Shown: one piece after another, positions 76 through 49,888 of the stretch
How positions within the stretch are numbered: position 1 is the stretch's first letter
Layout: every line of letters begins with the position of its first letter
Virus record (IMG/VR): IMGVR_UViG_3300034407_003922
Location: 1-49,888 of that record
Reading direction: 5' to 3' (one strand)
Length of the DNA stretch: 49,888 nucleotides
Origin: a virus
Made by a program: the position numbers and the translations under genes
Notes under the pieces: model-generated
Told to the model about the DNA's origin: nothing
The model's input: the letters and a program-made list of their open reading frames with translations, nothing else
Databases searched by the model: none

Positions 76-77
76 TA
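1..77. repeat. 77-bp exact direct repeat, left copy
   Basis: These bases are identical to 48576-48652 and diverge at the next base (t at 78, c at 48653). Both copies lie at the start of the terminase large subunit gene. The simplest reading is that the phage genome is circular and was opened here, giving a unit of 48575 bp. A length of exactly 77 is also a common assembler k-mer size, so the repeat may be a graph overlap and not a biological terminal repeat. Confidence 0.95.
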
Positions 78-10572: not shown

Positions 10573-11139
10573 TTAGGCCGTCTCTCCCTGAGCAGCGCGG
10601 ACATATTTGTAGAGTGTAGTCTTTACAATACCAGTCATATCGCATATCTGAAGCAGGGAGTATTTCTTAGAGTTATATAGATCAACAGCTAGTTGCTGTT
10701 TTTCCTTGCTAAGCTTCTTTGGCCTGCCGCCTTGTCTACCCCTTGATCTTGCAGCATCTAAGCCAGCGCGAACTCTTTCGCTAATGACGTTGCGCTCAAA
10801 TTCAGATAATGCAGCAAAGATATGAAAGACAAGTTTCCCAGTTGAACTTTGGGTATCAATAGTCTCTTGCAGGCTTTTAAAGGAGATGCCTTCTTCTTCC
10901 AGCTCAGAAACCCATGTGATAAGATGTTTCAATGAGCGGCCTAGGCGATCTAATCGCCACACAACCAACGTGTCTCCTTTTCGCACAATATCTTTAAGTT
11001 TGGCAAGCCCTGGACGCTCAGCTAAAGATCCGCTTGATTCATCAGTGATGATTCTTTCACAGCCGTCTTTTTTAAGAGCGTCTATTTGTAAGCTGAGATT
11101 TTGAAATTTAGTTGATATGCGTGCGTAGCCTATTTTCAT
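10573..11139 (-). CDS. Serine resolvase/invertase
   Basis: The 188-residue protein begins MKIGYARIST, with the catalytic serine of the family in the 'Y.R.S' block. It continues with the conserved VWRLDRLGRSLKHLI, the IFAALSEFERNVISERVRAG long helix and a C-terminal GGRPKK hinge plus helix-turn-helix. Such enzymes resolve multimers or invert DNA. In a phage kept as a plasmid, resolving dimers is the likely role, alongside the ParA/RHH pair. The frame is open up to 11199, but the conserved N-terminus starts at 11139. Repeats upstream (11149-11280) may be its binding sites. Confidence 0.85.
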   Translation of the reverse strand: MKIGYARISTKFQNLSLQIDALKKDGCERIITDESSGSLAERPGLAKLKDIVRKGDTLVVWRLDRLGRSLKHLITWVSELEEEGISFKSLQETIDTQSSTGKLVFHIFAALSEFERNVISERVRAGLDAARSRGRQGGRPKKLSKEKQQLAVDLYNSKKYSLLQICDMTGIVKTTLYKYVRAAQGETA

Positions 11140-11148
11140 ATATATTTG

Positions 11149-11280
11149 GTCCATAATGTCGAGGACGGCATCATACTTGGTAGCTTGATAAGTGTCCACG
11201 ATTTATGGACTAATAATCACTAAAAAATGTACATTCGTCAAAAATCCACATAAAGTACAATATACACCTGTATTATGGAC
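11149..11280. promoter_or_regulatory. Possible res site: repeats of TTATGGAC upstream of the resolvase
   Basis: TTATGGAC occurs at 11203-11210 and 11273-11280. It occurs in the opposite direction (GTCCATAA) at 11149-11156 and in degenerate form TCCACATAA at 11245-11253. An imperfect inverted pair TGTACATT/AAAGTACA lies in between. Clusters of inverted half-sites just upstream of a resolvase gene are typical of res sites, which also autoregulate the gene. The exact subsite layout is not clear. Confidence 0.45.
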
Positions 11281-11343
11281 TGCAATGTAATGTATATTTG
11301 TAGAGCATAACTTATGGTTAATTTTAGAGCAGGACAATAACTT

Positions 11344-12471
11344 TTGGCAAAAAACTTCCTTTTTACTTCTGAATCCGTGTCTGAAGGACATCCCGATAAA
11401 ATAGCTGATCAAATTTCAGACGCAGTGCTAGATTCTTTGCTTGCACAGGATCCTCAGGCACGTGTTGCTTGTGAAACCTTCATTAAAACAGGAATGGTTA
11501 TAGTCGGTGGTGAGATAACCACGTCTGCATGGGTGGATATAGAGCAGATAGCCAGGGGTGTAATAAAAGATATTGGATACGACAGCTCCGACATAGGGTT
11601 TGATTGGCAGTCATGTGCAGTGCTTTCTGCCATTGGCAAACAGTCATCTGATATTGCTCGTGGCGTTGATGCACAACAGCAGGGCGCTGGTGACCAAGGA
11701 ATCATGTTTGGTTATGCCTGCGATGAAACTGATACGTTAATGCCAGCACCTATTACTTATGCTCATAGACTTATGCAGCGCCAAGCTGAACTGCGTAAAT
11801 CCGGAAAATTGTCATGGTTAAGGCCTGATGCTAAAAGCCAGGTGACTATGCGTTATGTGGATAACCAACCCCACTCTATCGACACCGTCGTTCTATCTAC
11901 ACAGCATGATCCACAGATAGAGCAAGCTGACTTAGTCGAAGCTGTAATTGAAGAAATTATCAAGCCGACGCTGCCTGCAGCAATGCTAAAAGACACTAAA
12001 TTTTTAGTTAACCCTACAGGACGATTTGTTATTGGCGGGCCTCTAGGTGACTGCGGTTTAACAGGACGTAAAATTATTGTTGATACTTACGGCGGCATGG
12101 CACGACACGGTGGCGGATGTTTCTCAGGAAAAGATCCTTCAAAAGTTGATCGCTCAGCAGCTTATGCTGCACGTCACGTAGCAAAGAGTGTTGTTGCCTC
12201 CGGCCTTGCTAAGCGCTGCGAAATACAAGTGTCATATGCTATCGGTGTTGATAGACCAACATCAATTAACGTAGAAACATTTGGAACAGGAATTGCAGAT
12301 GATCATTCAATTATGAAATTGATTTATGAGGATTTCGACTTAACGCCAAAAGGAATTATCCAGCACTTAGACTTACTGCGCCCAATTTATCAAGCGACGG
12401 CAAGCTATGGTCACTTTGGAAGAAATGACTTGTTCCTTCCGTGGGAAAAAACATATCAAATACGCTGGTAA
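11344..12471 (+). CDS. metK: S-adenosylmethionine synthetase
   Basis: The enzyme makes S-adenosylmethionine from methionine and ATP. The 375 residues follow the bacterial enzyme closely: GHPDK (15-19), GAGDQG in the flexible-loop region, GGPMGDC-like [13 protein letters not shown], and the [20 protein letters not shown]/metal block. The C-terminus ends in [19 protein letters not shown], about ten residues short of the usual end but past all catalytic residues. It starts with TTG, supported by AGGA 8 bases upstream. Its end overlaps the convergent manC by 16 bases. A full-length metK in a phage is unusual; it would feed the phage FkbM methyltransferase or host methylation (inference). Confidence 0.92.
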
Positions 12472-13865
12472 TCATCGTCAAATCTAACTATGTCATCTTC
12501 GCCCAAATAACTTCCGGACTGCACTTCAATTATTTCCAATAATTCATCTGTTACATTTTCAAGTCGATGCTTTATCCCCAATGGAATATAAGTAGATTCA
12601 TTGCGATTTAAAATAAAATGATCTTCACCACAGGTAACATTTGCTTTCCCATTAACGACAACCCAATGCTCAGATCGATAATGGTGTATCTGAAGAGATA
12701 TTCTCTGGCCAGGTTTGATTATTATTCTTTTTACCTGATAGTTATTTCCAGAATCTAGGCATTGATATGAACCCCATGGTCGAAGAACAGTGCTATGACA
12801 TATATGCTCACTTCGGTTAGCGTCTCTTAGCTTATTAACTATCTCTTTAACATTTTGAGAATCATTTTTATCACAAACTAAAATAGCATCGTTCGTTTCA
12901 ATAATAACAAGACCATCTACACCAACAGCTGCTACTAGCCTCTCCTCAGAACGTATATATGTATTGGTAACGTTGTATGTAATAACATCACCTAACGAAA
13001 CATTATTATTTTTGTCTTTTAGTGAGTTATCATAAATCGACGGCCATGATCCCAAATCGCTCCACTGAGAATAAAGAGGGACGACAATAGCATTCTTTAC
13101 TTTCTCCATTACTGCGTAATCTATAGAGTCTGAAGGACACTTTCTAAATTCTTCATCATCTAAACGAATAAAATCTAAATCTTTTTCAGCCTTCTTTAGA
13201 GACAACTCGCATGCAGTTAACATATCAACATTAAAATGTTTTACATTGTCAATGAAACTCTGAGCGGAAAACATAAACATTCCACTGTTCCACAGGTAGT
13301 TACCGTCTTCTATATAAGACATTGCCAAATTTAATGATGGCTTCTCCACAAACTCATCAACAACGAATGCTTCATCAGACAATCTGTTACCACACTTTAT
13401 ATAACCATAGCCTGTCTCGGGCTTATCTGCTTTAACCCCGAAAGTAATCATGCCGCTATTTTTAGATTGTTGTTCTGCAACTTCAATAGCGGACTTAAAT
13501 GAGTCAGCGTTCTTAATTAGATTATCTGAGGGGAGTATTAGAATATCTGCATTAGGATATTTTTGTATAACATGTAAAGCTGCAATTAACGCAGCAGGGG
13601 CAGTATTCTTCCCGCATGGCTCTAATATTATTTGTGACTCATTAATATCAATTTGCTTTAATTGTTCGGCTACATTGAACCTGTGCTCTTCGTTGCAAAT
13701 AACAATGGGTGATGAAATATTTTTAATAGATTTAAGTCTTAATATCGTATCTTGTAACATACTGTTATCAGACATTATATTAAGTAATTGCTTGGGGTAT
13801 TTTGAGCGGGAAATAGGCCATAGCCTAGACCCATTCCCGCCTGATAGCACAACTGGAATAATCAA
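12456..13865 (-). CDS. manC: Mannose-1-phosphate guanylyltransferase / mannose-6-phosphate isomerase
   Basis: The protein has 469 residues, the usual length of the bifunctional type II enzyme. The N-terminal nucleotidyltransferase domain carries [16 protein letters not shown] (about 6-21) and FVEKPS near residue 170. The C-terminal cupin domain carries RPWGSY and the metal-binding block [12 protein letters not shown]. It makes GDP-mannose, donor for O-antigen, capsule and protein glycosylation. In this phage it is likely to supply the glycosyltransferase block at 24687-30100 or to alter host surface sugars (inference). It is convergent with metK and is the last-but-one unit of the leftward transcript. 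Confidence 0.92.
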
Positions 13866-13903: not shown

Positions 13904-14629
13904 CTACATAATATTTACAATTATTGATGCGCCAACCAAGTAGGCTGAAGCAATAGCATCCTGATCTGTTTCAAAGTTACCTGATCCTATAAATCCTTGG
14001 CAAAATAGTGATGCAGAGAAAATCTCATTGATGGTATAAGTGAAGCCCATGCCACCAGCAGGTCGGTAAGCGGTATAAATGTTTTTACCCAGTTTCGGTG
14101 TGGCAAATGCGTCATCATTAACATTTATGGTGGTATCGCCACTAGTTGAATTTCTATAATCAACCGTTTGGTTAACGTAAGAAAGACCAAGCTTAGCAAA
14201 AGCACTTAACTTTTCTTGTAAAGGTAATGTTCCCTTAAAGAATAAGTCAACAGAGTAAGTATTGTAGCTAAGTGTTGCTTTGTTAGTCGAAATTTCACTT
14301 GGAGAGGAATTCTGATAGCTTGACTGAGAAGATGAGTAATTAGTATCTGCATAGTTTGTATAGCCTAATTCCACCGCTAAAAATTGATTGATATTATATC
14401 CTGCATATAATCCACCACCAAAAAATCCAGCATCATCTTTAGATTCTGTTTGATAGACAGTTGTATCCTGATGTTTATCGGAAACTTTAAATGCAGAATA
14501 TGACGGTGTATTTAAAGATGAGCAACCTAATGATACACCAAAATATATATTTGAACTTGCATGTGCACGAATCGTAGAATTAATAGAAAAAAAAAGCATA
14601 AATATGGCTATAGCAGATTTTGTTTTCAT
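13904..14629 (-). CDS. Outer-membrane beta-barrel protein with signal peptide
   Basis: The 241-residue protein starts with a signal peptide (Lys-rich start, IAIFMLFFSI core, cleavage probably after HAHA). The mature part has alternating hydrophobic/aromatic strands ending in a terminal strand SIIVNIM, and Gly-rich segments such as FFGGGLYAGYNIN, as in OmpA/Lom-like eight-stranded barrels. Phage-encoded barrels of this kind are made in the host during lysogeny and can affect adhesion, serum resistance or superinfection. It follows the endolysin gene by 8 bases and precedes manC, so it may be expressed with either. Confidence 0.7.
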   Translation of the reverse strand: MKTKSAIAIFMLFFSINSTIRAHASSNIYFGVSLGCSSLNTPSYSAFKVSDKHQDTTVYQTESKDDAGFFGGGLYAGYNINQFLAVELGYTNYADTNYSSSQSSYQNSSPSEISTNKATLSYNTYSVDLFFKGTLPLQEKLSAFAKLGLSYVNQTVDYRNSTSGDTTINVNDDAFATPKLGKNIYTAYRPAGGMGFTYTINEIFSASLFCQGFIGSGNFETDQDAIASAYLVGASIIVNIM

Positions 14630-24246: not shown

Positions 24247-24660
24247 TTAAGCTCTAATCAATGTAACGATACCAGCGCTTTCTAATGTAACACTGAAAGT
24301 TAATTCAGTATTATAATCGCCGCCTTTTTCATAGCTTGTAGCTATAAACGTACCTTGATATATATCACCGTTACCATCTACGATTTGATATTCTTGAATA
24401 GTTCCGTTATTAGCTTCATCTTCTAAAGATTGAGCAGATGCGCCATCTTCAAAAACACCATCAGCGCTAATTGAAACTGTTCTAATACCAGTATCGCCAA
24501 GTAAAATACGAAATGGGGCTTCATCTTTAGTTGTGATATCAACAGTTTCATTGCCAATAGTTAAACTAGTAGTCCGAAGACCGCCAATAGTAGTGAATGT
24601 TGCTGGCGATATGCCATCAGAAATCTTGAGTAAAAAATCGCGTCCTTTAGTTGCGGCCAT
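24247..24660 (-). CDS. Major tail tube protein (TP901-1 / GTA type)
   Basis: The 137-residue protein is beta-rich, with KGRDFLLKISDGISPATFTT, GLRTTSLTIGNETVDITTKD and TYEKGG-like SYEKGGDYNTELTFSVTLES, as in the TP901-1/GTA gp9 major tail family. I chose the ATG at 24660 because AAGGAG is 7 bases upstream; an in-frame GTG lies two codons earlier. It polymerises into the tail tube. Directly upstream (in transcription) is the sugar-modification block, which separates it from the head-tail connectors. Confidence 0.85.
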   Translation of the reverse strand: MAATKGRDFLLKISDGISPATFTTIGGLRTTSLTIGNETVDITTKDEAPFRILLGDTGIRTVSISADGVFEDGASAQSLEDEANNGTIQEYQIVDGNGDIYQGTFIATSYEKGGDYNTELTFSVTLESAGIVTLIRA

Positions 24661-24686: not shown

Positions 24687-25325
24687 TCATTTATCAAAAG
24701 TAAAGATATGGTCTTTACCTATAGAATCCTTTAGTTTTGCTCCCCACTTAAGAAGAAGCTCTGATGCTGCCTTATCCTTCAATCCGAAACGACTTCCAAA
24801 TCGTTTTTCTTCTATCATGATGACAGGCTTGCATCGTTTAATTGTTTTTTCAGCGCCCAACAATGAAAAATATTCATATCCTTCTACATCAATTTTGATA
24901 AAATCAACGTCATCAAAGTCAAAGTAATCAACAGTCACCATATCTATTGACTGTTCTGTTTTATCTTTGCTCAGATAGTGGCTTCCTGAGTTACCCACTC
25001 TTTTTAGATCATATTTTATATATGTTTTGTCTAATTTTTCACCTGATGCTAAATTGTACGTTACTATATTTGAACAGCCAAAGCAATTTTTTTCTAAGCA
25101 TTCAAAATTATATTTATCAGGCTCAAACGCATGAACTGTGCCAAAATAATCTGCCATGTTTACAGACCATGTTCCTATATGGGCACCTATGTCTAAAGCA
25201 GTTCTATTATTTTTTACATACTTCAACGCCAAATCAAGATGCTCTATCTGAAATCCTCTCTCACTCATATTCTGACTAAAATATGTGTCGCTATCTGGAA
25301 CACTAAAACCTTTTGCTTGTTTCAT
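24687..25325 (-). CDS. FkbM-family SAM-dependent methyltransferase
   Basis: The 212-residue protein has the Rossmann SAM-binding motif ALDIGAHIGTWSV (about 44-56), an acidic VHAFEPD after strand 2, and the FkbM signature DFIKIDVEGYEYFSLLGAE. The family O-methylates hydroxyls, often of sugars in glycans and natural products. It is the last gene of the seven-gene block and overlaps the preceding gene by 4 bases. SAM could be provided by the phage's own MetK (inference). Confidence 0.85.
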   Translation of the reverse strand: MKQAKGFSVPDSDTYFSQNMSERGFQIEHLDLALKYVKNNRTALDIGAHIGTWSVNMADYFGTVHAFEPDKYNFECLEKNCFGCSNIVTYNLASGEKLDKTYIKYDLKRVGNSGSHYLSKDKTEQSIDMVTVDYFDFDDVDFIKIDVEGYEYFSLLGAEKTIKRCKPVIMIEEKRFGSRFGLKDKAASELLLKWGAKLKDSIGKDHIFTFDK

Positions 25326-26143
25326 CGCACATATACTCCTGTTTTTTGATGACTGACTAATTGATAAGTATGATTTGCTGTTTCTTTAATAGCCCCCTTC
25401 ATGTGTGAGCTAAACTTGCTCAAATCAGACGAATCCCAAGGCCTGCCGTCGTGCCTTGACGGCAAATCGTACCAATCCTCTTCTGTCATGATATTCTTTC
25501 TACAAATGTCCCACAGAAATGAATCATGCCATTCTGGTTCTTTCATGAACTCTCCAGTCACATACATATGAGCAAGTGATTGAATTAGACGTCTTGCTTT
25601 AGAATAAGCGCAGTTATAAGAAACAAAACCGCACTCTGTGTAGACTTTGTTTCTTCCTAAAAATGAGCAACATTTATCCGATGGAATAATGTTATCAAGC
25701 ATTGAAGAAGTAACGTGCGTAAAAAAGAATGTATCAGCATCTATCCATATGATTTTCTTTGAAGAGGCTTTATTCATTCCATCTTCGACAGAGAAAACTT
25801 TCTTACAAAACTTATTAGCATCAAATCTATAGTTATATTTTTCTTCTAGTGCTTTCGTTTTCCAATAAGTGCCGTCTTTTTTCTTCCGTCCTGACGTGTA
25901 TTCATTATTTTCAAACTTCGAAAAATACTCATTGTACTTTTTAGACTCATTATAGAGGTTGTAAATTTTAGTAGTTGATCTAATTTTATCCAATGGAATA
26001 TCTAAATCATCCTCGCTATATATTAACAGCTCAATATCATCTGCAAAAAACTCATTAAATGTCCTGATAAATATATGTGCATGATTGTCATAGCAATTCT
26101 GAGAAAAGCTTGTAATAACAGAATATTTAATTTCTTTACTCAT
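25322..26143 (-). CDS. Glycosyltransferase-like protein with D-x-D motif
   Basis: The 273-residue protein carries KIIWIDADTFFFTHV near residue 140. The D-A-D here, after a hydrophobic strand, is the metal/nucleotide-sugar signature of GT-A fold enzymes, and SFLGRNKVYTECGFVSYNC after it resembles the acceptor-side block of GT8-like proteins. Its N-terminus is YSVITSFSQNCYDNHAHIFI. It is co-translated with FkbM through a 4-base overlap. The donor sugar cannot be told from the sequence. Confidence 0.6.
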   Translation of the reverse strand: MSKEIKYSVITSFSQNCYDNHAHIFIRTFNEFFADDIELLIYSEDDLDIPLDKIRSTTKIYNLYNESKKYNEYFSKFENNEYTSGRKKKDGTYWKTKALEEKYNYRFDANKFCKKVFSVEDGMNKASSKKIIWIDADTFFFTHVTSSMLDNIIPSDKCCSFLGRNKVYTECGFVSYNCAYSKARRLIQSLAHMYVTGEFMKEPEWHDSFLWDICRKNIMTEEDWYDLPSRHDGRPWDSSDLSKFSSHMKGAIKETANHTYQLVSHQKTGVYVR

Positions 26144-26149
26144 GTGAAC

Positions 26150-26854
26150 TTACTTCCTTTTTATGTCTAACATTTCATATAAGTGTCTATACCAATCACC
26201 TGCATAATCTACAGACTCATGCCCGGTCAACCACGGTCCATAATTTGTCCAATGTACTAATTTGGCATCTTTGTTGTGATCATAGACCCCAACCAAATGA
26301 TTCCATTCAGCAGGTATTTCACCTATTTGGTCATCCTCAAGAAACTCAAAGCGATGCAAATAAAGACCAACGTTGAAGTCATCAGTGTCTAATTGATTTA
26401 TTAATTCTGGCGTTAGCATCCTGTTTGATTTATGTCCACAATTCCAAAGAACACAGCTTGACCAATTTTTCCTCTGGTACTTTGCGTTTTCTTTTCCCAA
26501 ATATTTAACGTCTGACGTCGGTGTGTAGTCGTGCTTTACGCACATGACAGCATAATCGTCATCACATAGTTCAAATAGCTTTGAGATATCACTTAATGAA
26601 AGAAAATCGTTATCTGTGAATAATGCCCAGCCCTTATAGTTGTTCAAATAAGGAACTAAGAATCTGGAGAAAGCAAAATCATTAGATTGCTTCGGATGAC
26701 GAGGCCTAGTAATCTCTGTTGTAAGATGATCAAGATTTATCTGTGATATAGAAAGTGGTTTTGTAGAGTACTTATTTAAACTATAACAAAATACATTGTA
26801 TGCTAATTGCTCAATTTTGTCATAACCAATATGAATCTTTAGCGTTCCCATCAT
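26150..26854 (-). CDS. Glycosyltransferase (GT8-like, 'IGYD' family)
   Basis: The 234-residue protein has KIHIGYDKIEQLAYNVFCYS at the N-terminus, the strand FSRFLVPYLNNYKGWALFTDNDFLSL with D-N-D in place of D-x-D, and KNWSSCVLWNCGHKSNRMLT. It ends with EIPAEWNHLVG and the metal-binding VHWTN. These are the landmarks of a glycosyltransferase group known from marine phages and bacteria. It follows the KpsC-like genes after a 72-base gap, the only gap in the block besides the ends. Sugar and acceptor unknown. Confidence 0.75.
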   Translation of the reverse strand: MMGTLKIHIGYDKIEQLAYNVFCYSLNKYSTKPLSISQINLDHLTTEITRPRHPKQSNDFAFSRFLVPYLNNYKGWALFTDNDFLSLSDISKLFELCDDDYAVMCVKHDYTPTSDVKYLGKENAKYQRKNWSSCVLWNCGHKSNRMLTPELINQLDTDDFNVGLYLHRFEFLEDDQIGEIPAEWNHLVGVYDHNKDAKLVHWTNYGPWLTGHESVDYAGDWYRHLYEMLDIKRK

Positions 26855-26926
26855 ACATCCTTGTATTTTCTGGCTAACAAAGAAGCATTATATTTTGTTT
26901 ATATAATTATTCATAGTGTATGTTTT

Positions 26927-27811
26927 TTACAAAAAATCCTTGAGGAATTCCCAGAATGATCCATTGAGTATTTCATCAACAGAATATTGATGGTATGCTA
27001 TATTACTGAACAGCTCATACCTTTTCTGCTCATCTGGGTAGTGGGCTCTATCGATATCACCTAATGATGTTCTTGATAGAGACCTCACTATCCCATTCCC
27101 TAAAACAAATGATGGTATACCTGCAATTAATGCTTCTAAATTGGCATTACTTCCGTGGGATATGACGCAATGTGTTTTTTGTTTAAAATAAGTAAATAGT
27201 TTGTAATTTGGGCCACAAAAAAATGTCCCTTCTATTCTCTCTGCGCCCTTCCAAGATGGTTTTGGACGATATACGAGCTCATTATCTCTTTTAGAGAACT
27301 TCCTTACTTTCCTAAATACCTGCTTTGCATACTCATTTGCATCACCTAGATTTTGATAATTACAATACTTTTGGGAGCTCCCAGCAAATATGACAGAACC
27401 TTGCTTGTATTTTTTCATTGGTAATATTGGGATATTTAACGCATCCCATCGATCACCAGGCATTTGTTTATTTAAAAAATAATCATGTGGTTGATTGTCA
27501 TTGATAGCAAACCGATAGTATTTGCACTTACTTTTTTCATAATCAGGATCACCAATTCGAATATACCCCTTATCGATATATAATATAGTAACCCCTGCTT
27601 CCTTGACTTGATCAAGTTTCTCCGATGAATAGCCCATAACGCCAATAACAACCAATACGTCTATCATTTTCTGTTCTAAAACAACTTCGTCGAATCGTTC
27701 TTTTTCAAATTGTAATAACTCATGTCCAAACTTTGACACTCCGGTGCGCAAGCTTTGGGCAAGGAAATCTCTTAACTCTAATTTATTATCAATAACTGTG
27801 CCAAAAATCAT
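26927..27811 (-). CDS. GT-B/KpsC-like protein, paralogue 3
   Basis: The 294-residue protein has ELVYRPKPSWKG near residue 180 and TYFKQKTHCVISHGSNANLE with LIAGIPSFVLG near 220-240. This is the C-terminal 'S..S....AL..G.P' nucleotide-sugar-site pattern of KpsC/KpsS-like and related GT-B transferases. The end (YHQYSVDEILNGSFWEFL) is shared with the two preceding genes, so the three are tandem paralogues. It overlaps the upstream gene by 4 bases. It could also be a non-catalytic relative; no donor is predicted. Confidence 0.55.
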   Translation of the reverse strand: MIFGTVIDNKLELRDFLAQSLRTGVSKFGHELLQFEKERFDEVVLEQKMIDVLVVIGVMGYSSEKLDQVKEAGVTILYIDKGYIRIGDPDYEKSKCKYYRFAINDNQPHDYFLNKQMPGDRWDALNIPILPMKKYKQGSVIFAGSSQKYCNYQNLGDANEYAKQVFRKVRKFSKRDNELVYRPKPSWKGAERIEGTFFCGPNYKLFTYFKQKTHCVISHGSNANLEALIAGIPSFVLGNGIVRSLSRTSLGDIDRAHYPDEQKRYELFSNIAYHQYSVDEILNGSFWEFLKDFL

Positions 27812-28710
27812 AAATAGTCCTTTAACTGTTCAAATATAAATCTCCACATACTTCCATTGCGTATCTCCGCATCATTCCACTGGCAATAGGCAAGATTGCA
27901 TAAGAATTGATGTATCTCTTCGTATGATGGAAAGTACGGATTATCAATTTCGTTTAAATCTCTAAAACATAAATATTGTTGTGGGGTTTCATAATCAACG
28001 TAAGCAGGCATCCCATTAATTAATGCATCTATTGCAACGTTAGAATGGTGAGTAACAACTGCGCTACATTTGTTAAGTTCTCTAAATATCTTTGTAGTTG
28101 TATCAACAGATTCTGCATTTTGTATTTTATTTGTTCTGCTATACACGCATGTTGGCTTACTTCTATACACTATACGTTTTGATGTTATTTTAGATATCCT
28201 ATCAACTATGTTTTGCTCATAGTGCAGGTGATCAAGATCTAACGCCCATGCTGATTTTTTGGACATTCCTGCGACGAGTATATTTTCACCGCCTGTTTTC
28301 TTTTCTTTTATTTTGACATCCAGTCGTCGCAACCTGATGTCTGACTTATTGCCCATGGTGTTACAGTACATAGGATAGTAGTGATTAATAGATATACGAT
28401 GATAGCCATCAAACTTGGAATCTAATGTTCGTTTGAAGTAGCCAAGGTCAATGAATATTGAAATCTTATTGCGCTTTTTATAATCATTGAATATTTTTTT
28501 TAAGTTATCTTTAAGGCCATAAAATACGGCAATATCACCTTCTATCTTATTAGCATAATTTTCCTGATCTATTTCTTTTATGTTATTAAATCCCAATCTT
28601 CTAAGACCAATAGCAGCCGACTTGCATAATGCACGAGACCTAGAATTAGTTCGGATATAATAGACTACTATGATGCAATTCTTCTTGTTTTCCATTTTAG
28701 ATACGTCCAT
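27808..28710 (-). CDS. GT-B/KpsC-like protein, paralogue 2
   Basis: The 300-residue protein has RIVYRSKPTCVYS (about 190) and CSAVVTHHSNVAIDALINGMPAYV (about 230-253, interrupted by none of the usual gaps), with the terminal block YCQWNDAEIRNGSMWRFI. These match its neighbours at the same positions. The start at 28710 overlaps the previous gene by 43 bases; an in-frame ATG at 28695 is also possible. The family builds capsule- or LPS-like sugars. Confidence 0.55.
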   Translation of the reverse strand: MDVSKMENKKNCIIVVYYIRTNSRSRALCKSAAIGLRRLGFNNIKEIDQENYANKIEGDIAVFYGLKDNLKKIFNDYKKRNKISIFIDLGYFKRTLDSKFDGYHRISINHYYPMYCNTMGNKSDIRLRRLDVKIKEKKTGGENILVAGMSKKSAWALDLDHLHYEQNIVDRISKITSKRIVYRSKPTCVYSRTNKIQNAESVDTTTKIFRELNKCSAVVTHHSNVAIDALINGMPAYVDYETPQQYLCFRDLNEIDNPYFPSYEEIHQFLCNLAYCQWNDAEIRNGSMWRFIFEQLKDYL

Positions 28711-29519
28711 GCTTCACCTAATTTAATTTCGTCTATATCCCAGACTTTCCAGCTGAGCATCTTCATATACTTAACAAATAGTTCGTAATCATACATCTGT
28801 GGATTATTAATATTACTAATACTATTACATGCAAATGATTGGCCTAATATTTTGTGGCCTGAGTAGAATACAGGAACCCCCTGGCATAAGGACTTAATAG
28901 AACAACTGCTTGTGTATACAACTGTGCAAAATGCTCCCTCAATAGATTGGTTTATGTTCTCATTCTCATCTATTTCTACATTAGCAATTCTATTAACGTC
29001 AGGAATACGTCTCCTAGCCGGATGTGGTCTAAAAATGATCTTTCTATCCGTGTGCTGTCTTATTTCTTTACATATGTCATTAGGCCAATTTGAAGGCATA
29101 GCGTAGGGACTATAGTTTCCTCCCATTTGTCCGCAGACTAATATATAACCATCCTGATTTATTTTGGGTTTTTCTAATGCTATATTAAACATATTAAGTC
29201 TATCTGATGCAGAATCAGTTATAGAGAAATCTTCATAAAGATCGCCAAAATTAAAGCTGTATGTTTTTTTACCATGCAGGGCAGGAAAATAACCATTTTC
29301 CATGATTAGATGGATACCGCCTTTTTCCTTAGTTTTTTTAGCTACTTTTCCTGACGTCCCATAATTGTTCCATGTTAATACAATTGTTTCATTGCTCAAA
29401 TGATCACCAGAATCTGGATGAGCATATATAGCCTTGTCTCCTGCTCGAGATATCCCCTCATTCATTTCATGAAATGGGTATGGCTCTCTATTTCTGATTA
29501 AGTTATATACAATATTCAC
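28668..29519 (-). CDS. GT-B/KpsC-like protein, paralogue 1
   Basis: The 283-residue protein has RKIIFRPHPARRR, an exact R-P-H-P motif as in KpsC/KpsS Kdo transferases and CDP-glycerol transferases. AFCTVVYTSSCSIKSLCQGVPVFY follows, then the shared end block SWKVWDIDEIKLGEAWTYL. It is the most canonical of the three copies, the others having RPKP and RSKP. It overlaps the MptE-like gene by 4 bases. Probably a transferase acting on a surface glycan (inference). Confidence 0.6.
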   Translation of the reverse strand: MNIVYNLIRNREPYPFHEMNEGISRAGDKAIYAHPDSGDHLSNETIVLTWNNYGTSGKVAKKTKEKGGIHLIMENGYFPALHGKKTYSFNFGDLYEDFSITDSASDRLNMFNIALEKPKINQDGYILVCGQMGGNYSPYAMPSNWPNDICKEIRQHTDRKIIFRPHPARRRIPDVNRIANVEIDENENINQSIEGAFCTVVYTSSCSIKSLCQGVPVFYSGHKILGQSFACNSISNINNPQMYDYELFVKYMKMLSWKVWDIDEIKLGEAWTYLKWKTRRIAS

Positions 29520-30100
29520 AAGAACTCCAACAAATCGCGTTTCTCAAAGCAATCTAATGCACTATCATGATTAGCATTGTAAACGGTTACACCCTCATGC
29601 TTTAGTGGATCTTTAATAGTCTCAAACCACGGCAACATTTTATATGTCAGTGTATCTTCTTTGTTCTTTATAGAGTATTCACCGTAATGGTGAGACTTAT
29701 CACCATCGAACTTCATGTCATAGCCAAGCAACACAATTGTCTTGGCATCTAGATGATAGGCAAGGTTAATCGCCGCATAACCACTGTTATTACCGCACTT
29801 AATGTCTTTCCCATCTATACCCAAGCCTGATCTTCCAGCGTTGCGCCATTTTTCAACACAGGGGTCATCAACGTTTCTAGCAACAGTTATTTTTCTTCCC
29901 GGATGTTTTTGCATGTCATTCTTATGCCAGTTAAATACTCGACCATCAGAGAAATAGATAACAGTTGCAGCAGGAAGAGAATAGAAAGATTTGTTGATTG
30001 CAATGACATTTCTGTCTTTTAATTGATCAAAATCAAATCCACACAATGAAGGACCGCCGGCAACAAGAAACCAGACAGGGTGTTTGATACTATCATCCAT
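29516..30100 (-). CDS. MptE/DUF115-like protein of the glycan block
   Basis: The 194-residue protein has VWFLVAGGPSLCGFDFDQL, NVIAINKSF and KTIVLLGYDMKFDG, with HHYGEY downstream. This is the pattern of the 6-hydroxymethylpterin pyrophosphokinase MptE-like/DUF115 fold, which is also related to GT42-type sialyltransferases and motility-associated factor proteins that decorate flagellin with nonulosonic acids. It is the first gene of the seven-gene block and directly follows the tail terminator gene. A transfer role is inferred from context. Confidence 0.6.
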   Translation of the reverse strand: MDDSIKHPVWFLVAGGPSLCGFDFDQLKDRNVIAINKSFYSLPAATVIYFSDGRVFNWHKNDMQKHPGRKITVARNVDDPCVEKWRNAGRSGLGIDGKDIKCGNNSGYAAINLAYHLDAKTIVLLGYDMKFDGDKSHHYGEYSIKNKEDTLTYKMLPWFETIKDPLKHEGVTVYNANHDSALDCFEKRDLLEFL

Positions 30101-30128: not shown

Positions 30129-30503
30129 TTAAAGCTCTTTCATAATTTTAAGATCAATGGTGAGATGTGGCCGGTTGTTTTTATCAAGGCCTATATCTTC
30201 AGCGCTACCCATTAAGTAGCAATAAATATAGGTGGCGCTAATAGATGCATTATTGAATGCATTAAATACGAGTTGCATCTGTGCCTTAGCTGCTTCATAA
30301 CCATAAGCAACACCTCTAACAACAACCTGTATTTTAGGATATTGAGCGACAGTATCTGGGTCACCTGTGCTGCTAATTTCTTTTAAATAGACAATTTTAT
30401 CTGGTGAGTCTGGCATATAGGATAACACTGTAGACCATCCTGTAGCGCCATCACTAACATTCTCATTAGCTAAGTAAGTTTTAAGATCATCGAGTATGGC
30501 CAT
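30129..30503 (-). CDS. Tail terminator / tail completion protein
   Basis: The 124-residue protein opens MAILDDLKTYLANENV and contains VQVVVRG-like KIQVVVRGVAYGYEAAKAQM. This is typical of the DUF3168-like and 'minor capsid' tail terminators that close the tail tube at the head end. It is last in the connector series and stands where the tail tube gene would normally follow; instead the glycan block is inserted here. Confidence 0.6.
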   Translation of the reverse strand: MAILDDLKTYLANENVSDGATGWSTVLSYMPDSPDKIVYLKEISSTGDPDTVAQYPKIQVVVRGVAYGYEAAKAQMQLVFNAFNNASISATYIYCYLMGSAEDIGLDKNNRPHLTIDLKIMKEL

Positions 30504-33828: not shown

Positions 33829-34074
33829 CTACTCTATACCTAAAGGATTCCATGATTCATCATATTCTTCAGTTTTATATTTAAATGATGATTCTGGACA
33901 TTTCGTGTAATACCACTTTGAATCGGTTGCCCTCTGCTTTACATTTGACCACCTAACCGTTTTCGACCGCCATTCTTCGCTAGAATTCTTGTGCTCTTCT
34001 GATTCCATATAAATAGCATAATCTTTTTTCTGAGCCGCAATGGCCTCGTCTTCTGTATCAAATATATTTTCCAT
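33829..34074 (-). CDS. Hypothetical protein, 81 aa
   Basis: A small acidic, Glu/Lys/Trp-rich protein (EDEAIAAQKKDYAIYMESEE, YDESWNPLG), not recognised. Its ATG overlaps the last base of the DUF285 gene's stop, so it is translated together with that large protein. Short proteins coupled to a fibre gene are often its chaperone, as in tail-fibre assembly proteins; this is inference. Confidence 0.5.
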   Translation of the reverse strand: MENIFDTEDEAIAAQKKDYAIYMESEEHKNSSEEWRSKTVRWSNVKQRATDSKWYYTKCPESSFKYKTEEYDESWNPLGIE

Positions 34075-36635
34075 TAATACACGCTCCATTTTCCATTCAA
34101 GTAACTTAGAACACTTGCTATATCAGAATCTGACAACGACGAATTGAATACAATGAGCTCTGAGATATCGCCAGTCAACTTCTCTGCTCCACTAGAAAAG
34201 GCTGCTCCAACTGAAAAATCCACGTTGTTGTATGTAGTCAGATCAAGCGTCGTGGTTGATGTGCTTTTGGTAGCATTCAACCAATACTTATGTGAAGAAG
34301 CAGAGGCCGATGCCCATGTTCGAATATTGGGTGAAGCTGTATTCGTTGCATACGCTACAGTATCCCCATCTTTCCCTGAATTAAACACGGTATTGGTCAT
34401 CTGCAATTTGCGCCTAGAAACATCTGTCGTTATAGTACCTGGATCATTTTTACCACAATACGATCCTGTTCCTGAACACACTGCAAATATAGTAAATGCC
34501 GATAAATCAAATTGAGCCTCTGTTGTTCCTTGCAAATAATCAGTCGTTCCATCAAATGTAATTGTTGGCTGGCTAAGCAGCCCCGTGGCGTCGTATGTTG
34601 GCTGATTTGATCCCGTACCTTGCACTAAATCATTACCATTGTACGATTTATCGTCCCACTGTGAGACTGATCCTGACGATTCGGTAATAGTACTAAGGTC
34701 AGCGGAATCGTACCATGCAACTTGTGTTCCAACATCCAGTCCGCCATCTGTGATTGTCCATGTATCATCTGTTACCATATCGTAACGTGCTGTTGCTGCT
34801 GACATAGAATACGTTGAGTTACCACCACTGAATGTGAGTCCGCTAGGAACTCCCTGAGCGTACCACCCTGTCAACAATGCATCATAATTAGCTGTGCTTA
34901 GAGTTGCTCCGGCAAACATATCAGTCAAATTTGTTGCTGATGTAACATCCCATGAACTTAGATCTTGGTCAAATGCTACTGCACTTTTAAACATATTATG
35001 ATACTGCTCGACTCCAGTCATATCCCATGATGATATGTCTTGGTTAAAGACAGTTGCACCCTCAAACATGCCGTTAACTCTCGTAACATCGCTGTTGATT
35101 GTCCATCCTGAGATATCGGCGTTGAAGTTCGAACAACTTTTAAACATATTAATAAGCAACGGCAACTCGCTAACATCGAGTGATGAAAATGATGCCTCAT
35201 CTAAGTTTGTACAACCAAGGAACATATTAAATGAGTTATTCACTGATGTTCCGAAATCCCAACTTCCAACGTTTGGTAACGATGTTATGTCATCGCACAC
35301 TCTAAATATGTTATTCAATCGCGTCGAAGAAGCAGGGAATTGAAGTGTATCAGTTGCTGTCACAGTCATATTGCTACATCCGTAAAACATTCCGTCGGCT
35401 ACGCCTGCGATAACTCCGCCCCATTGTGATACATCCAGCAATTTTAGCTTATCTACCCCATTATTAAACGCAAGTCCGCCAACAGTTCCATGTAGTTCAA
35501 TTTCGTATGTTGCAGCAGAACCAAAGTCATGTGTCCAGGCTGCGTCATTGTATGTTGTGATTCTATCACCAGAAGATCCGGTCCATTCTGCAAAACAGTC
35601 ATACGTCCCGGAACTAACGGTTGGAACGGAAAACGATGTGCTGCTAGATGTTCCTGCGTTGTCGGTCTTCACGCTTATGATGAATGCTCCTGTTGAACCG
35701 CCATCTGTGATTGTCCATGAGTGATCGTTAATCAGATTGAATCTAGCCTCAGCTGCATCCGCACCCGAATAAGTTGAATTACCGCCATGGAATGAAACAG
35801 TGTTATTAACTGCCTGAGCTTCCCAGCCTACTAGCAATGCATTGTAGTTAGCTGTGCTTAATGTCGCTCCATCAAACATACTTACTGCTGAAGTTAACGA
35901 AGTAACGTCCCATGCGGCAAGATTTTGATCAAATGATGAGGCAGCGAAAAACGTGCCGATCATCGTAGTGATTGATGAAGTATCCCACACGCTGATATCT
36001 TGATTAAAAGAAGACGCGCTGTTAAACATATTTGCAATATTTGAAATAGACGACATGTCCCAACTAACAATGCTTGGCTCATTGAAACTTGACGCTCCGC
36101 TGAATATGTCTGTTATGCCGGTTATTGAGGATGTTACCCATGAACCCATATTTGCTACAGTTGTTAAAGATGAGCAATTTCTAAAGAACTGGACAAACGT
36201 GGCTATACCACTTACGTCCATGACATCAGTTGCAGTAACTGTCAGGTTGGAGCAGCCATAGAATACTGCTTCTTGGTTTCCACTATTAAACGGTCCCCAT
36301 TGGCTAATGTTTAATAGCTTCTCTTCATCTCCAGCATTATTAAACTTAAATCCTGTGAAGGTTCCTTGAATTCTTACTGTATAGGTTCCTGATGTTGAAT
36401 AGGTATGTGTCCATGCCGCATCATTGTATGTAGTAATGGAGTCTGATGTCCCATCTCCCCAGAAGATAGTACAGTCGTACGTTCCTGATGATACAGTTGG
36501 GATGGTTATTTGATCATTGTTGGACGTACCAGTATTATCTGTCTTCCAGCTGGTAATGAAGCGAGTTGCTTCATCTGTCTCATCGCTAAGAAGTTGTTTC
36601 AGCTCTCTTATGAGAAGTCCTTTTAACAGTGCCAA
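34074..36635 (-). CDS. Large BspA-like (DUF285) repeat adhesin with LamG-like C-terminus
   Basis: The 853-residue protein has an N-terminal helix (about 1-20). Two copies follow of a ~300-residue unit, each made of a PKD-like beta domain (TVSSGTYDCTIFWGDGTSDS) and BspA/DUF285 leucine-rich-type repeats with the 'MF..A..FNQDIS.WD' motif, as in NMFNSASSFNQDISVWD. A LamG/concanavalin-like domain (about 645-853) follows, with AWYDSADLSTI and TFDGTTDYLQG. DUF285 proteins are surface adhesins in bacteria; here the gene sits in the head operon, so a virion-attached adhesin is probable. There is no signal peptide, which also favours virion attachment. Confidence 0.8.
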   Translation of the reverse strand: MALLKGLLIRELKQLLSDETDEATRFITSWKTDNTGTSNNDQITIPTVSSGTYDCTIFWGDGTSDSITTYNDAAWTHTYSTSGTYTVRIQGTFTGFKFNNAGDEEKLLNISQWGPFNSGNQEAVFYGCSNLTVTATDVMDVSGIATFVQFFRNCSSLTTVANMGSWVTSSITGITDIFSGASSFNEPSIVSWDMSSISNIANMFNSASSFNQDISVWDTSSITTMIGTFFAASSFDQNLAAWDVTSLTSAVSMFDGATLSTANYNALLVGWEAQAVNNTVSFHGGNSTYSGADAAEARFNLINDHSWTITDGGSTGAFIISVKTDNAGTSSSTSFSVPTVSSGTYDCFAEWTGSSGDRITTYNDAAWTHDFGSAATYEIELHGTVGGLAFNNGVDKLKLLDVSQWGGVIAGVADGMFYGCSNMTVTATDTLQFPASSTRLNNIFRVCDDITSLPNVGSWDFGTSVNNSFNMFLGCTNLDEASFSSLDVSELPLLINMFKSCSNFNADISGWTINSDVTRVNGMFEGATVFNQDISSWDMTGVEQYHNMFKSAVAFDQDLSSWDVTSATNLTDMFAGATLSTANYDALLTGWYAQGVPSGLTFSGGNSTYSMSAATARYDMVTDDTWTITDGGLDVGTQVAWYDSADLSTITESSGSVSQWDDKSYNGNDLVQGTGSNQPTYDATGLLSQPTITFDGTTDYLQGTTEAQFDLSAFTIFAVCSGTGSYCGKNDPGTITTDVSRRKLQMTNTVFNSGKDGDTVAYATNTASPNIRTWASASASSHKYWLNATKSTSTTTLDLTTYNNVDFSVGAAFSSGAEKLTGDISELIVFNSSLSDSDIASVLSYLNGKWSVY

Positions 36636-45014: not shown

Positions 45015-45662
45015 ATGATAATACTAGTGGGCGGACAAAAAGGTGGCACGGGAAAGACAACATTAACCGTAAATCTTGCAGCACAGAGTAATGACATATC
45101 ACAAACAATCATTATTGACACTGACCCACAAGCAACAGCTAGCGACTGGTGCTATATAAGGCAGAAGAGCCACCAAGACAAATACATAACCTCAATACAG
45201 AAGTTTGGAGACGGGCTTAGGAAAGACGCACTCACTATAAGCAAGAAATATGATAAATGTTTTATTGACACTAATGGCGTTGAGTCCAAAGAGCTTCGCA
45301 CTGCATTAGTCATCTCTGACATTGCCTTATTTCCCATCCAGGCATCACAGTTCGATTTATGGACAATACAAGTTCTTAATGACCTAGTAGCTGACGCTAA
45401 ATGCTTAAATCCAAAGCTTAAGGCCTATGTCGTAATGACCCGCGTACATACAAACCCAGTCGTGAATGAAGCGACTGCTGCGAGAGACTATATAAAAGAT
45501 TTTGAGCACTTAACATTATTAGATTCTTTTATTAGCGACAGGATTGATTATAGGAAATCTATAAAGGTAGGACTAAGTGTCACAGAAGAGCAATTCAATA
45601 AAACAAAATCTTCAAAAGAAGTACATAACTTAAACAAGGAGCTATTTAATGAACACATTTAA
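45015..45662 (+). CDS. ParA/ParF-type partition ATPase
   Basis: The 215-residue protein has the deviant Walker A KGGTGKT (9-15) with both the signature and catalytic lysines, then IIDTDPQATASDW and the Walker B-like FIDTNGVE. It has no N-terminal HTH, as in short type Ib partition ATPases such as ParF. With the RHH partner it moves plasmid copies on the nucleoid. A phage with such a pair and no integrase is probably kept as a plasmid in lysogeny. Confidence 0.85.
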   Translation: MIILVGGQKGGTGKTTLTVNLAAQSNDISQTIIIDTDPQATASDWCYIRQKSHQDKYITSIQKFGDGLRKDALTISKKYDKCFIDTNGVESKELRTALVISDIALFPIQASQFDLWTIQVLNDLVADAKCLNPKLKAYVVMTRVHTNPVVNEATAARDYIKDFEHLTLLDSFISDRIDYRKSIKVGLSVTEEQFNKTKSSKEVHNLNKELFNEHI

Positions 45663-47219: not shown

Positions 47220-48650
47220 TTAAATGTAGCCTTTAGTTTTATGTAAATTAAGATTCAAGTTTCCAATATCTGTTCCCTTGTTAGCTATGACTGAGAACGC
47301 GCCATTAGTCGCATCGACAATATCATCATGCTGCATAGAGCTTTGTGGCGGGAATGATTCGTGTTCATTTAAGAACTCGTCATTCCACGATCCTCTAACA
47401 AGCCGGACATTTCCTGCCTCCCACTGGCTTGAGAATGCTCTTGCTCTGATAATCTTAGCGTTATCTTCTGCGAATACTTTCTTACCTTTCGGTGCTGGGT
47501 AGGCTCTAACGTTGTATCCTGCAAGTAGGCGTATGTAGTTAGAAACCTCATACTTACCAGCCTGCCCAGGATCCTGCTCTAAGCAGACTTCTACATTCTT
47601 GCCATCTTGTGATGCGGTATTTAAAATAAGCTGCTCTACGGAGCGTGGTGTTCCTCTAAGAGAGGAAAGATGTTCCACATAGAACAATCCGTCGCTTGCT
47701 TTGCTCATCTTGACGCCTCTGGTCCAATCTGGATTGTTTATAGCTGTTTTTTCTGTGCTAGCCCTGTCCCAATAACGAACAGTTTTTAGTATCTTGGCTG
47801 GAATAACATCAACAATCTCTATCTTGTCGCGCTTAAAGTAGTCACCCTTACTTGCTTTTATCTTCCAGTTGCCGCTTAGTAGCCGCTCACGCTCCACAGT
47901 TGGCAGTGACAGCAAAGATGCGTAGTAACCAGGATCTTTGTCCATAAGTACTTTGTTGTCGCTTAGAAGCGCTGGTATGAAGGTTACTGATCTAGGGATT
48001 AACTTTTCGTACTTAGCTTCTAGCTCTTCTTTTGTGTCACCCCAAACCATGTTATCTCCATCTCTCACGAACCATCTAACAACACCTGCCCTATCATTTA
48101 TAGGAAGCCCGCTAGCCTGGTCTATCCACCAAGAGATCATATTACAAACAAAGCTATCTGGGTCTGGATTACATGTTGCTCTAATGTAGGGCCTTACTCC
48201 GCTTGTTGTTCTGTTTCTAGACATCATGTAGAAAAACATTGATTCAGAATAATGCGTTAACTCATCAAATATGATTAGTACTATCTGACTACCCTGCCAG
48301 CCGTACTTATCATTCTCATGCTGAAGATAAGAGAATGTTACTGTAGCGCCAGACTCGAAGGTGAATTTAAGATTGGATTGGTTGGGCTTGGCCCCTAAAG
48401 GTGTGTATAAGTTGCACGCCTCATCCCACAGACCACCAGGATCTTTAATCTGTTTATAAGTTGATCTAAATATAACGCAATTAAAATTTGGATTGTGTAC
48501 ATGCCGCAATGGCTCAACCAATATAGCCCAGCTCTTTCCTCCACCAGCAGCACCGCCAAATATAGCTATATCAGCACTAGACCCCAAGAACATCTCCTGT
48601 GGTCCAGGCTGTGGCTTTATAACAATGTTTTCTTTGCTTGCCTCACCCAT
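47220..48650 (-). CDS. Terminase large subunit
   Basis: The 476-residue protein has Walker [10 protein letters not shown] (32-40), Walker [10 protein letters not shown] and a C-terminal RNase H-like nuclease half, with [12 protein letters not shown] carrying the first acidic residue, then an EQDPG block and [11 protein letters not shown]. It drives DNA into the prohead and cuts the concatemer. It is full length, but its upstream sequence at 48653 and beyond is host smpB, not phage. The native upstream neighbour is at 68-379. Confidence 0.92.
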
Positions 48651-48652
48651 TA
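48576..48652. repeat. 77-bp exact direct repeat, right copy
   Basis: Identical to bases 1-77. It covers codons 1-25 of the terminase and two bases beyond. The base after it (48653) begins host smpB sequence, while the base after the left copy (78) begins native phage sequence. The shared last bases TTA also fit the smpB reading frame (first Leu of LLLHSK). Confidence 0.95.
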
Positions 48653-48865
48653 CTCCTGCACAGCAAACAGCTCGCTAAGCTTTTCGCGACCGTACACCAA
48701 AAAGGCCACACCTGTGTCGCCGTGAAATTGTATTGGAAGGGACACCTCGTTAAGTGTCAGATAGCGCTCGCCAAAGGCAAGCAAGACCACGACAAGCGCG
48801 CCACCGAGAAAGATCGTGAGTGGCAGGTCGATAAACAGCGCATCGTGCGCAACGCTAATCGCTAG
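48653..48865 (+). pseudogene. smpB: smpB, 3' half only (5' part replaced by phage)
   Basis: The frame reads [40 protein letters not shown] and [20 protein letters not shown] to the stop. This matches SmpB of Escherichia coli from about residue 90 to the end, including the basic tail needed for tmRNA accommodation. The first ~89 residues, with most of the tmRNA-binding OB core, are absent. An ATG within the antisense terminase sequence (48638) opens a chimeric 75-aa frame but cannot restore function. SmpB and ssrA are normally partners and often neighbours, as here. Confidence 0.85.
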
Positions 48866-48914
48866 ACCAACCAACTGCTCCCCATAATGATTTATCGTGA
48901 CCGATACGGTTTCG

Positions 48915-48923
48915 TGCTATTCT
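48915..48923 (+). promoter_or_regulatory. ssrA promoter, extended -10
   Basis: TGC followed by TATTCT (48918-48923) is an extended -10 element 10 bases before the tmRNA 5' end. A weak -35 (around 48896) may be present. The 68-base gap after smpB contains nothing else. Confidence 0.5.
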
Positions 48924-48933
48924 TTGTGGACTT

Positions 48934-49294
48934 GGGGGTGATTTGGATTCGACGCCGGTATCAAAACCTTAGGTGCATGCCGAGAGGGTAGTAACTCTCG
49001 TAAATCAATTACTGCAACTTTATAGTTGCCAACGACGAAAGCTACGCCCTAGCAGCCTAAGAGCTTGCTAGCGATTACCGCCGGGATGCCCGTAAACTGG
49101 TATTTGGTAATCGTCATCTAGAACGGGATCGCCAGTGGAACGCGCTTGACGTGAAGCGGCTAAATAGTATCAAGCTCGCCCAATTCACCCTGCCCGTCGG
49201 GCCGATGAGGGTTAACCTAGTAGACGACGCTATGCATGTAGAGCCGAAGATAGAGAGCTGACGGACGGGGGTTCAATTCCCCCCGCCTCCACCA
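48934..49294 (+). ncRNA. ssrA: tmRNA (transfer-messenger RNA)
   Basis: The 361-base gene starts GGGGGTGATTTGGATTCGACG and ends GTTCAATTCCCCCCGCCTCC-ACCA. The ends form the tRNA-Ala-like acceptor stem (seven pairs, two of them G-U) with the T-loop GTTCAATTC. The tag frame at 49028-49060 (GCC AAC GAC GAA AGC TAC GCC CTA GCA GCC TAA) encodes ANDESYALAA. The form of the tag (AND..YALAA) is typical of Gammaproteobacteria. It rescues stalled ribosomes together with SmpB. Its 3' end is a classic integration site. Confidence 0.95.
49271..49294 (+). other. Probable attachment site at the tmRNA 3' end
   Basis: The T-arm and acceptor end of ssrA (GTTCAATTC to ACCA) is a common target of tyrosine integrases, and an integrase gene start follows about 170 bases downstream, the standard layout of an integrated island. 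The far att copy is outside the window. Confidence 0.5.
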
Positions 49295-49327
49295 AATACC
49301 AGTCCGCGCAAGTCCGACGAAGTCTTT

Positions 49328-49356
49328 AAAGCCCTGTTAATCAGGGCTTTTTTGGT
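49328..49356 (+). terminator. Rho-independent terminator of ssrA
   Basis: AAAGCCCTG (49328-49336) and CAGGGCTTT (49342-49350) form a 9-bp stem with a 5-base loop followed by a T run. It ends the tmRNA transcript about 35 bases after the mature 3' end. Confidence 0.85.
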
Positions 49357-49406
49357 TTTACTACTCCCTCGAATTCCATTAGACTCCTATTGAATCCACG
49401 TAATTA

Positions 49407-49453
49407 GGGGGTATCTTTGGGGGTACTTCCAGAAATTCTGTTTAGATACCCCC
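49407..49453. repeat. Integrase arm-type repeats (GGGGGTA)
   Basis: GGGGGTA occurs directly repeated at 49407-49413 and 49419-49425, and GGGGGTATCT (49407-49416) is inverted as AGATACCCCC (49444-49453). Such GGGGGTAt blocks commonly lie between a tRNA/tmRNA attachment site and a P4-like integrase gene, where they serve as integrase or regulator binding sites. They belong to the chromosomal island, not to the phage. Confidence 0.55.
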
Positions 49454-49464
49454 AATTCAAAGCT

Positions 49465-49860: not shown

Positions 49861-49888
49861 AATTATCCGATTTACTCGACCGACATAC

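Follow-up and report, generated by a model that had tools for sequence, protein, structure and literature searches.

Retaining β-Kdo (3-deoxy-D-manno-octulosonic acid) transferases of the KpsC (GT107), WbbB (GT99) and KrkA (GT140) type have a modified GT-B fold; the characterised members use the Asp of a QXXXD motif as nucleophile and bind cytidine monophosphate (CMP) through a (K/R)XHP motif (PMC12887879, PMC9587256, PMC10148158). The Maf enzymes, whose catalytic domain is PF01973, put nonulosonates and also Kdo on Ser/Thr residues of flagellin (PMC11339370). Among phages, mycobacteriophages encode glycosyltransferases (GTs), and their capsid and tail tube subunits are glycosylated (Freeman 2023, as reported in PMC12619734), and GT8-containing gene clusters of pelagimyophages have been read as systems for O-chain modification (PMC7029224). 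Here we analyse a 49.9 kb virus record of IMG/VR (IMGVR_UViG_3300034407_003922, positions 1 to 49,888; hereafter the window) from a tailed phage with a siphovirus-type tail tube and tape measure, in which seven minus-strand open reading frames (ORFs) at 24687-30100 sit between the tail terminator and the tail tube. In transcription order these are ST, Kps1, Kps2, Kps3, GT8, GTx and FkbM, with the tail tube gene 26 bases further on (Table 1). A previous reading of the letters alone (the sequence-only reading) had proposed a seven-gene glycan-building block inserted in the tail operon at this place, and indeed all seven ORFs are there, on the minus strand, with flanking genes that match PF12691 and PF06199. 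We put the chances at about even that this block is a late cassette whose products glycosylate a protein of the virion, perhaps the tail tube itself.

The position of the block is shared by its close relatives. A scan of IMG/VR contigs for related tail tubes gave 80 loci; a second scan, made with the tubes of block-bearing contigs, brought in one more contig with the block, along with others. In all nine contigs with a tube identity of at least 54% (54-62%; L236-L243 and L316) the block lies directly before the tube, and in each of the four whose sequence covers the upstream side (L236, L238, L239, L240) it begins right behind the terminator. No block gene stands beside the tube in about 78 contigs with more distant tubes, in some of which the upstream side is short, and in the best-resolved of these a terminator-sized gene directly precedes the tube. 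Similarly, three annotated phages whose tubes are about 37-38% identical have no glycan genes in the terminator-tube interval, and two of these have a terminator-type gene as immediate neighbour of the tube, as expected of two genes that had been described as normally close neighbours. The block-bearing tubes form one clade (support 0.983), and the suggested comparison of presence and absence between the same two tail genes thus shows a real link to tail genes, inherited in one phage clade. Among the genes compared between the window and its block-bearing relatives, similarity was detectable in the three neck genes (HC, HTJ and the terminator), the block and the tube, and was weak in two small genes that follow the tube. 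Because the other structural genes compared show no detectable similarity, the neck-block-tube unit appears to have been held together while the remaining ones diverged. Unusual conservation of the tube was also considered as a sign of co-evolution and was rejected, since terminator identity is no different in block-free pairs at 50-70% tube identity.

Within the block, the start of a gene overlaps the preceding stop by 4 bases at three of the six internal junctions (FkbM/GTx, Kps3/Kps2 and Kps1/ST); the Kps2/Kps1 overlap is 43 bases long, and the remaining two junctions are gaps of 6 and 72 bases. The earlier statement that most starts overlap in this way was therefore wrong, while the coordinated unit that it was meant to support holds up: despite fewer 4-base overlaps than claimed, the block is predicted to be operon-like because no terminator-like site was found inside it on the coding strand. 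Judging by its position, it would be expressed late. Its GC content (0.35) is near that of the late genes on either side (0.37 and 0.40), and composition alone therefore gives no foreign mark. None of the seven proteins has a transmembrane segment (highest 19-residue hydropathy mean 1.53), and by hydropathy no flippase, polymerase, membrane GT or lipid-linked GT is present in the block, which thereby differs from the Gtr O-antigen seroconversion cassettes with their membrane proteins (flippase, lipid-linked GT).

Pfam, PHROG and NCBIfam matches together with two fold searches agree with the earlier reading of the block as GTs plus an FkbM methyltransferase. The last gene is certain to belong to the FkbM family by its profile matches (PF05050, E 1e-21; TIGR01444, 83.9 bits against a cut-off of 37.7). 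GT8 matches PHROG 28018 (E 7.7e-41), lies just below the gathering score of PF01501 (21.7 against 24.3 bits, E 1.7e-4), is 39-44% identical to proteins of Pelagibacter, Manatee Spring and Synechococcus phages, and has a DxD motif (D81/D83) that is invariant across six GT8-like sequences. GTx has no Pfam family; its AlphaFold2 (AF2) model (predicted local distance difference test score, pLDDT, 84.8) matches α-1,3-galactosyltransferase, the ABO enzymes GTA/GTB, XXYLT1 and glycogenin in the PDB (E 1e-7 to 4e-6), and its DxD motif (D135/D137) is invariant across 41 sequences. On this model GTx is a predicted GT-A enzyme like those of GT6 and GT8. For both proteins submitted to fold search, Kps2 and GTx, the glycosyltransferase reading was not refuted.

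The three Kps genes are paralogues (23-26% identical); by profile, Kps1 and Kps3 are homologous to Kps2, and Kps3 is 26% identical to it (E 6e-19). The best 28 PDB fold matches of the AF2 model of Kps2 (pLDDT 89.4) are all KpsC, WbbB or KrkA (E 2e-9 to 2e-5), and the modelled fold is of this modified GT-B type, an assignment that stays at the superfamily level because the TM-scores are about 0.5. A profile of 93 homologues touched WbbB entries alone among PDB sequences, weakly (E 0.65) and in the CMP-binding half. PF05159 (Capsule_synth) matched nothing in the window up to E 10, with a positive control, and a mixed KpsC alignment was too divergent for patterns in the profile scan. The window copies keep the C-terminal nucleotide-binding pattern of the characterised enzymes (R-x-H/K-P and S...G-x-P), whereas the Asp nucleophile is absent from all of them: in the QXXXD region, the least certain part of the Kps alignment, Kps1 reads QMGGN (Gln kept, Asp replaced by Asn), Kps2 MSKKS and Kps3 SSQKY. 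The HP of the CMP-binding motif is kept in Kps1 (RPHP) and not in Kps2 (RSKP) or Kps3 (RPKP). Because the full catalytic set of QXXXD and HP is missing, we regard Kps1-3 as relatives of β-Kdo transferases, with Kdo transfer putative, rather than as proven Kdo transferases. The complete set occurs in 32 of 306 aligned phage homologues, for example in podovirus L006, and extra Kps copies beside GT8 in L240 and L242 have QVPTD and RPHP by sequence. Other positions are nearly fixed across the 306 homologues (R183 in 295, S223 in 298, E282 in 290, G286 in 289, and an acid at position 88 in 300), which argues against decay and for activity with an altered mechanism or donor.

A further difference from KpsC, WbbB and KrkA is that the phage genes come as arrays of three orthologous lines. 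In the Kps protein tree K1, K2 and K3 are separate lines (support in Table 1), and each has members from the window, L236, L238, L240 and L325. In L325, a GC-rich contig of an Alphaproteobacteria metagenome-assembled genome, a tail-completion gene (PF11367) is followed by ST, K1, K2 and K3, and the K1 line also takes in the first Kps gene of the Caulobacter giant phages CcrColossus and CcrSC. ST-K1-K2-K3 thus looks like an ancient unit of fixed order that stands behind a tail gene, and this order suggests that a defined oligosaccharide may be built with one enzyme per step.

The first gene, ST, matches PHROG 4603 ('alpha-2,3-sialyltransferase', E 3e-36) and falls below the cut-off of PF01973 (24.5 against 34.6 bits, E 2.6e-5), a family matched by 23 of 35 ST relatives and above cut-off by that of L190. 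Its best NCBIfam match, the WaaZ Kdo III transferase (E 1e-4), is far below the equivalog cut-off (21.8 against 200 bits), as is the second, PseD (E 0.009), below its own. With the Maf/PseD flagellin GTs it would share a likely use of CMP-ulosonates and a plausible protein acceptor; the differences are that ST is a single domain of 194 residues in place of the three-domain Maf architecture, and that phage ST genes lie beside tail or capsid genes, not flagellin. ST is a likely CMP-ulosonate transferase and would take the initiating step. A single-protein scan of viral contigs found no close relatives of ST, and a search of PDB sequences gave nothing credible. The idea that ST and the KpsC-like proteins form one family was rejected, as hhalign shows no relation. 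Among 39 scanned upstream neighbours of ST genes were 10 head-tail adaptors, 17 members of phrog_24071 and several tail fibres, and in L187 a neighbour of the same size as the phrog_24071 proteins matches Phage_capsid_4. ST appears to be the part of the block that tracks virion genes, because it is nearly absent from T4-like GT clusters (1 of roughly 160 such loci, L064) and elsewhere lies behind adaptor, capsid-like or tail fibre genes, and before GT2 and methyltransferase genes. In some cases the ST domain is part of a larger protein, of up to 1,246 residues, that has further domains. For example, a 1093-residue phage protein (L190:7890-11171 and L235:7890-11171) has two tandem ST (MptE-like) domains and a long C-terminal part that resembles two GT-B units by eye.

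The gene families of the block also turn up in T4-like phages, podoviruses and Caulobacter phages, at different sites and in different arrangements. The sequence-only reading had held that similar genes occur singly in marine phages; in fact all four of FkbM, GTx, GT8 and a KpsC-like gene are present in 56 of the 247 runs of same-strand genes at related viral loci. Their order is mostly FkbM-GTx-GT8-Kps, as in Pelagibacter phage Mosig, and in T4-like marine phages the sets lie near nrd, uvsX, uvsY and uvsW (names read from the cluster sequences), almost always without ST; in the window the order is reversed, ST is present and the block is inside the tail operon. A link to late genes in relatives is thus borne out by the tube clade and by ST near virion genes, but not by the T4-like sets near replication genes. 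Closer in layout is CcrColossus, where ST, two Kps genes and GT8 (gp126-gp129) follow the tail genes and precede the lysis genes and where gp127 is, like Kps1, of the K1 line; the site is not the terminator-tube interval, and no GTx, FkbM or K2/K3 orthologues were found in that block. A fused protein of a cytidylyltransferase-like part and a mannose-6-phosphate-isomerase-cupin part lies beside marine GT cassettes at 63 loci (e.g. L081:3254-4018), and it is present in L328 and L329 too. We found no description of a block of this composition and place in the open-licence papers searched; phage glycan cassettes and virion glycosylation as such are already known.

At the late end of the same strand, the window encodes a ManC protein (TIGR01479, 663.5 bits against a cut-off of 372.95; PF00483 and PF01050 also matched), and we are confident in the prediction that the phage can make GDP-mannose. 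The records of L240 and L241 have a nucleotidyltransferase-cupin protein in place of ManC, and phage S-SCSM2R carries KdsA and KdsB.

From the gene content, enzyme folds or families, fixed position, orthology and gene order, which the analysis shows, we infer donors and sugars, an order of steps, an acceptor and a benefit. During tail building, the inherited late cassette would equip a virion protein with a glycan that is short, defined and O-methylated. ST would transfer a first CMP-activated sugar, Kdo- or nonulosonate-like, to Ser/Thr of a structural protein, by analogy with Maf on flagellin. Kps1, Kps2 and Kps3 would then add one further residue apiece, each with its own specificity, GT8 and GTx would add hexoses from nucleotide sugars, one perhaps GDP-mannose from the phage ManC, and FkbM would place a methyl group on a hydroxyl. 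As acceptor we favour the tail tube, which is encoded directly behind the block, and the modification might, for example, shield the virion or change its surface. We favour virion glycosylation because the link to tail genes is inherited and membrane parts are lacking, the latter being expected for a soluble acceptor. Moreover, linkage of GT genes to virion genes, a feature of phage virion glycosylation systems, is present here; the differences from the mycobacteriophage case, so far as it is reported, are the KpsC-like and MptE-like enzymes plus FkbM.

Several points weigh on the other side. Characterised KpsC/WbbB relatives use lipid or O-antigen acceptors, and the virion acceptor is itself our deduction. 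The full QXXXD and HP set is found in 0 of the 3 Kps copies of the window, and KdsB is absent from the window, so that any CMP-Kdo donor would have to be host-derived. The NCBIfam profile closest to ST is that of a lipopolysaccharide (LPS) enzyme, WaaZ, and in T4-like phages the GT set without ST lies outside the late genes. In addition, the tube shows no unusual conservation, since terminator identity in block-free phage pairs is the same at equal tube divergence (median 38% against 40%).

Some of these points fit the main rival reading, remodelling of the host envelope. Here the late enzymes would work on the cytoplasmic side, extending or capping the LPS core, O-chain or capsule, and would thereby keep progeny from re-adsorbing to the dying cell or to debris, or exclude rival phages. 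We consider this quite possible, if short of probable, because of the WaaZ and KpsC relations and an OmpA-like barrel of the phage: the fold relatives KpsC and WbbB build capsule linkers and O-antigen ends (PMC12887879, PMC9587256), and the published reading of the pelagimyophage GT8 clusters points the same way. The barrel gene, at 13904-14629 on the minus strand, adjoins the endolysin gene and encodes an OmpA/AcfA-like outer-membrane β-barrel with a signal peptide; the protein is possibly a receptor mask or a release aid, and the record of the block-bearing relative L237 has a small outer-membrane barrel too. Remodelling of the envelope does not, however, sit easily with a block that lacks flippase, polymerase and membrane GT, with late timing (by position), which is ill-suited to superinfection exclusion, or with an inherited site between two tail genes, for which it has no obvious need.

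It is improbable that the block is passenger cargo, a mobile accessory cassette at an insertion-tolerant, strongly transcribed site with an unspecific or dispensable product. The varied orders and places of its families in other phages would agree with this, as would the absence of GT8 from L238 and L239 and a Kps copy number of 3-4 where the block is fully in view; but the three separate Kps lines have retained one order despite large divergence, and mobile passengers would leave empty sites among close relatives, where the site is kept in 9/9 contigs. Decoration of modified bases of the phage DNA is very improbable, for although DNA is a known target of viral GT clusters (Pyle 2024, as cited in PMC12619734), the base-making thymidylate-synthase/dCMP-hydroxymethylase family enzyme (PF00303) of DNA glucosylation and hypermodification systems is absent from the window with a positive control, Tet_JBP has no match there with its control silent as well, and the block lies in a late tail operon.

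Table 1. Positions of the block genes, their flanks and ManC in the window, with the supporting matches.
Feature	Position	Strand	Basis
ST, first block gene	29516..30100	-	MptE-like / Maf_flag10-type single domain; PHROG 4603
Kps1, KpsC/WbbB-like GT	28668..29519	-	clade K1, support 0.997; QMGGN, RPHP
Kps2, KpsC/WbbB-like GT, K-type	27808..28710	-	AF2 fold matches; clade K2, support 0.999; MSKKS, RSKP
Kps3, KpsC/WbbB-like GT, K-type	26927..27811	-	26% identity to Kps2; clade K3, support 0.985; SSQKY, RPKP
GT8, GT-A glycosyltransferase, GT8-like	26150..26854	-	PHROG 28018; DxD
GTx, GT-A glycosyltransferase, GT6/GT8-like, without Pfam family	25322..26143	-	AF2 fold matches; DxD
FkbM-family methyltransferase, last block gene	24687..25325	-	PF05050, TIGR01444
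Tail tube (TP901-1 type major tail protein), next downstream	24247..24660	-	PF06199, E 2.4e-30; TIGR02126 above cut-off
Tail terminator, upstream flank of block	30129..30503	-	PF12691, E 1.4e-10
ManC, mannose-1-phosphate guanylyltransferase / mannose-6-phosphate isomerase, late end	12456..13865	-	TIGR01479, PF00483, PF01050

The late genes of the window run on the minus strand from terminase, portal, head protease and major head protein through the neck genes to the tail tube, and continue beyond it with the tape measure, distal tail protein, a J-like fibre and the endolysin. A comparison of window positions 1-25000 with named phages found no relatives at the DNA level, and none of 143 pattern matches was confirmed as a host genome with a related tail tube. 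Between the head and neck genes, at 34074-36635 on the minus strand, lies a gene for an 853-residue protein with four DUF285 stretches (PF03382, E 1.3e-55), internal DNA repeats and 26% Ser+Thr, which is an unusual candidate virion protein and an alternative putative glycan acceptor. At the fibre end of the late region (10573-12471), a minus-strand DNA invertase gene (phrog_125) adjoins a divergent conserved gene of unknown function (phrog_1569, E 2e-137), a region that is possibly an invertible switch. A ParA-like partition protein is encoded at 45015-45662 on the plus strand (phrog_164, E 3.6e-37), and together with the lack of an identified phage integrase it hints at plasmid-like prophage maintenance. 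The right end of the window (48576-49888) resembles a bacterial chromosome, with the C-terminus of SmpB on the plus strand (about 48690-48865), a tmRNA at 48934-49294 (RF00023, 190.9 bits) and the truncated start of a P4-type integrase at about 49466. Its junction with the phage is a 77-base repeat that copies window positions 1-77 exactly. Because 77 is a frequent assembler k-mer, this end is likely a chimeric join, and the tmRNA was rejected as a phage-borne gene; the phage itself may be complete, with a circular genome of about 48.6 kb.

Whether environmental phage GT clusters act on the virion, the host surface or DNA is a standing question, and a cassette that stays locked between terminator and tube throughout a clade whose other structural genes are unrelated makes the target testable on virions. 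Enzymes of the KpsC/WbbB type, familiar from the making of capsules and O-antigens, have diversified among phages: they form separate orthologous lines, many of which lack the canonical catalytic aspartate. More tentatively, and on balance doubtfully, the locus may represent phage protein O-glycosylation built from ulosonic-acid transferases, with a stand-alone Maf-like enzyme as primer on the tail tube or another virion protein, extension by an ordered set of KpsC-like enzymes without the canonical nucleophile, then hexoses and a methyl cap. If true, such a pathway would bring a new chemistry to virion glycosylation and add a mechanistically new branch to the KpsC/WbbB superfamily.

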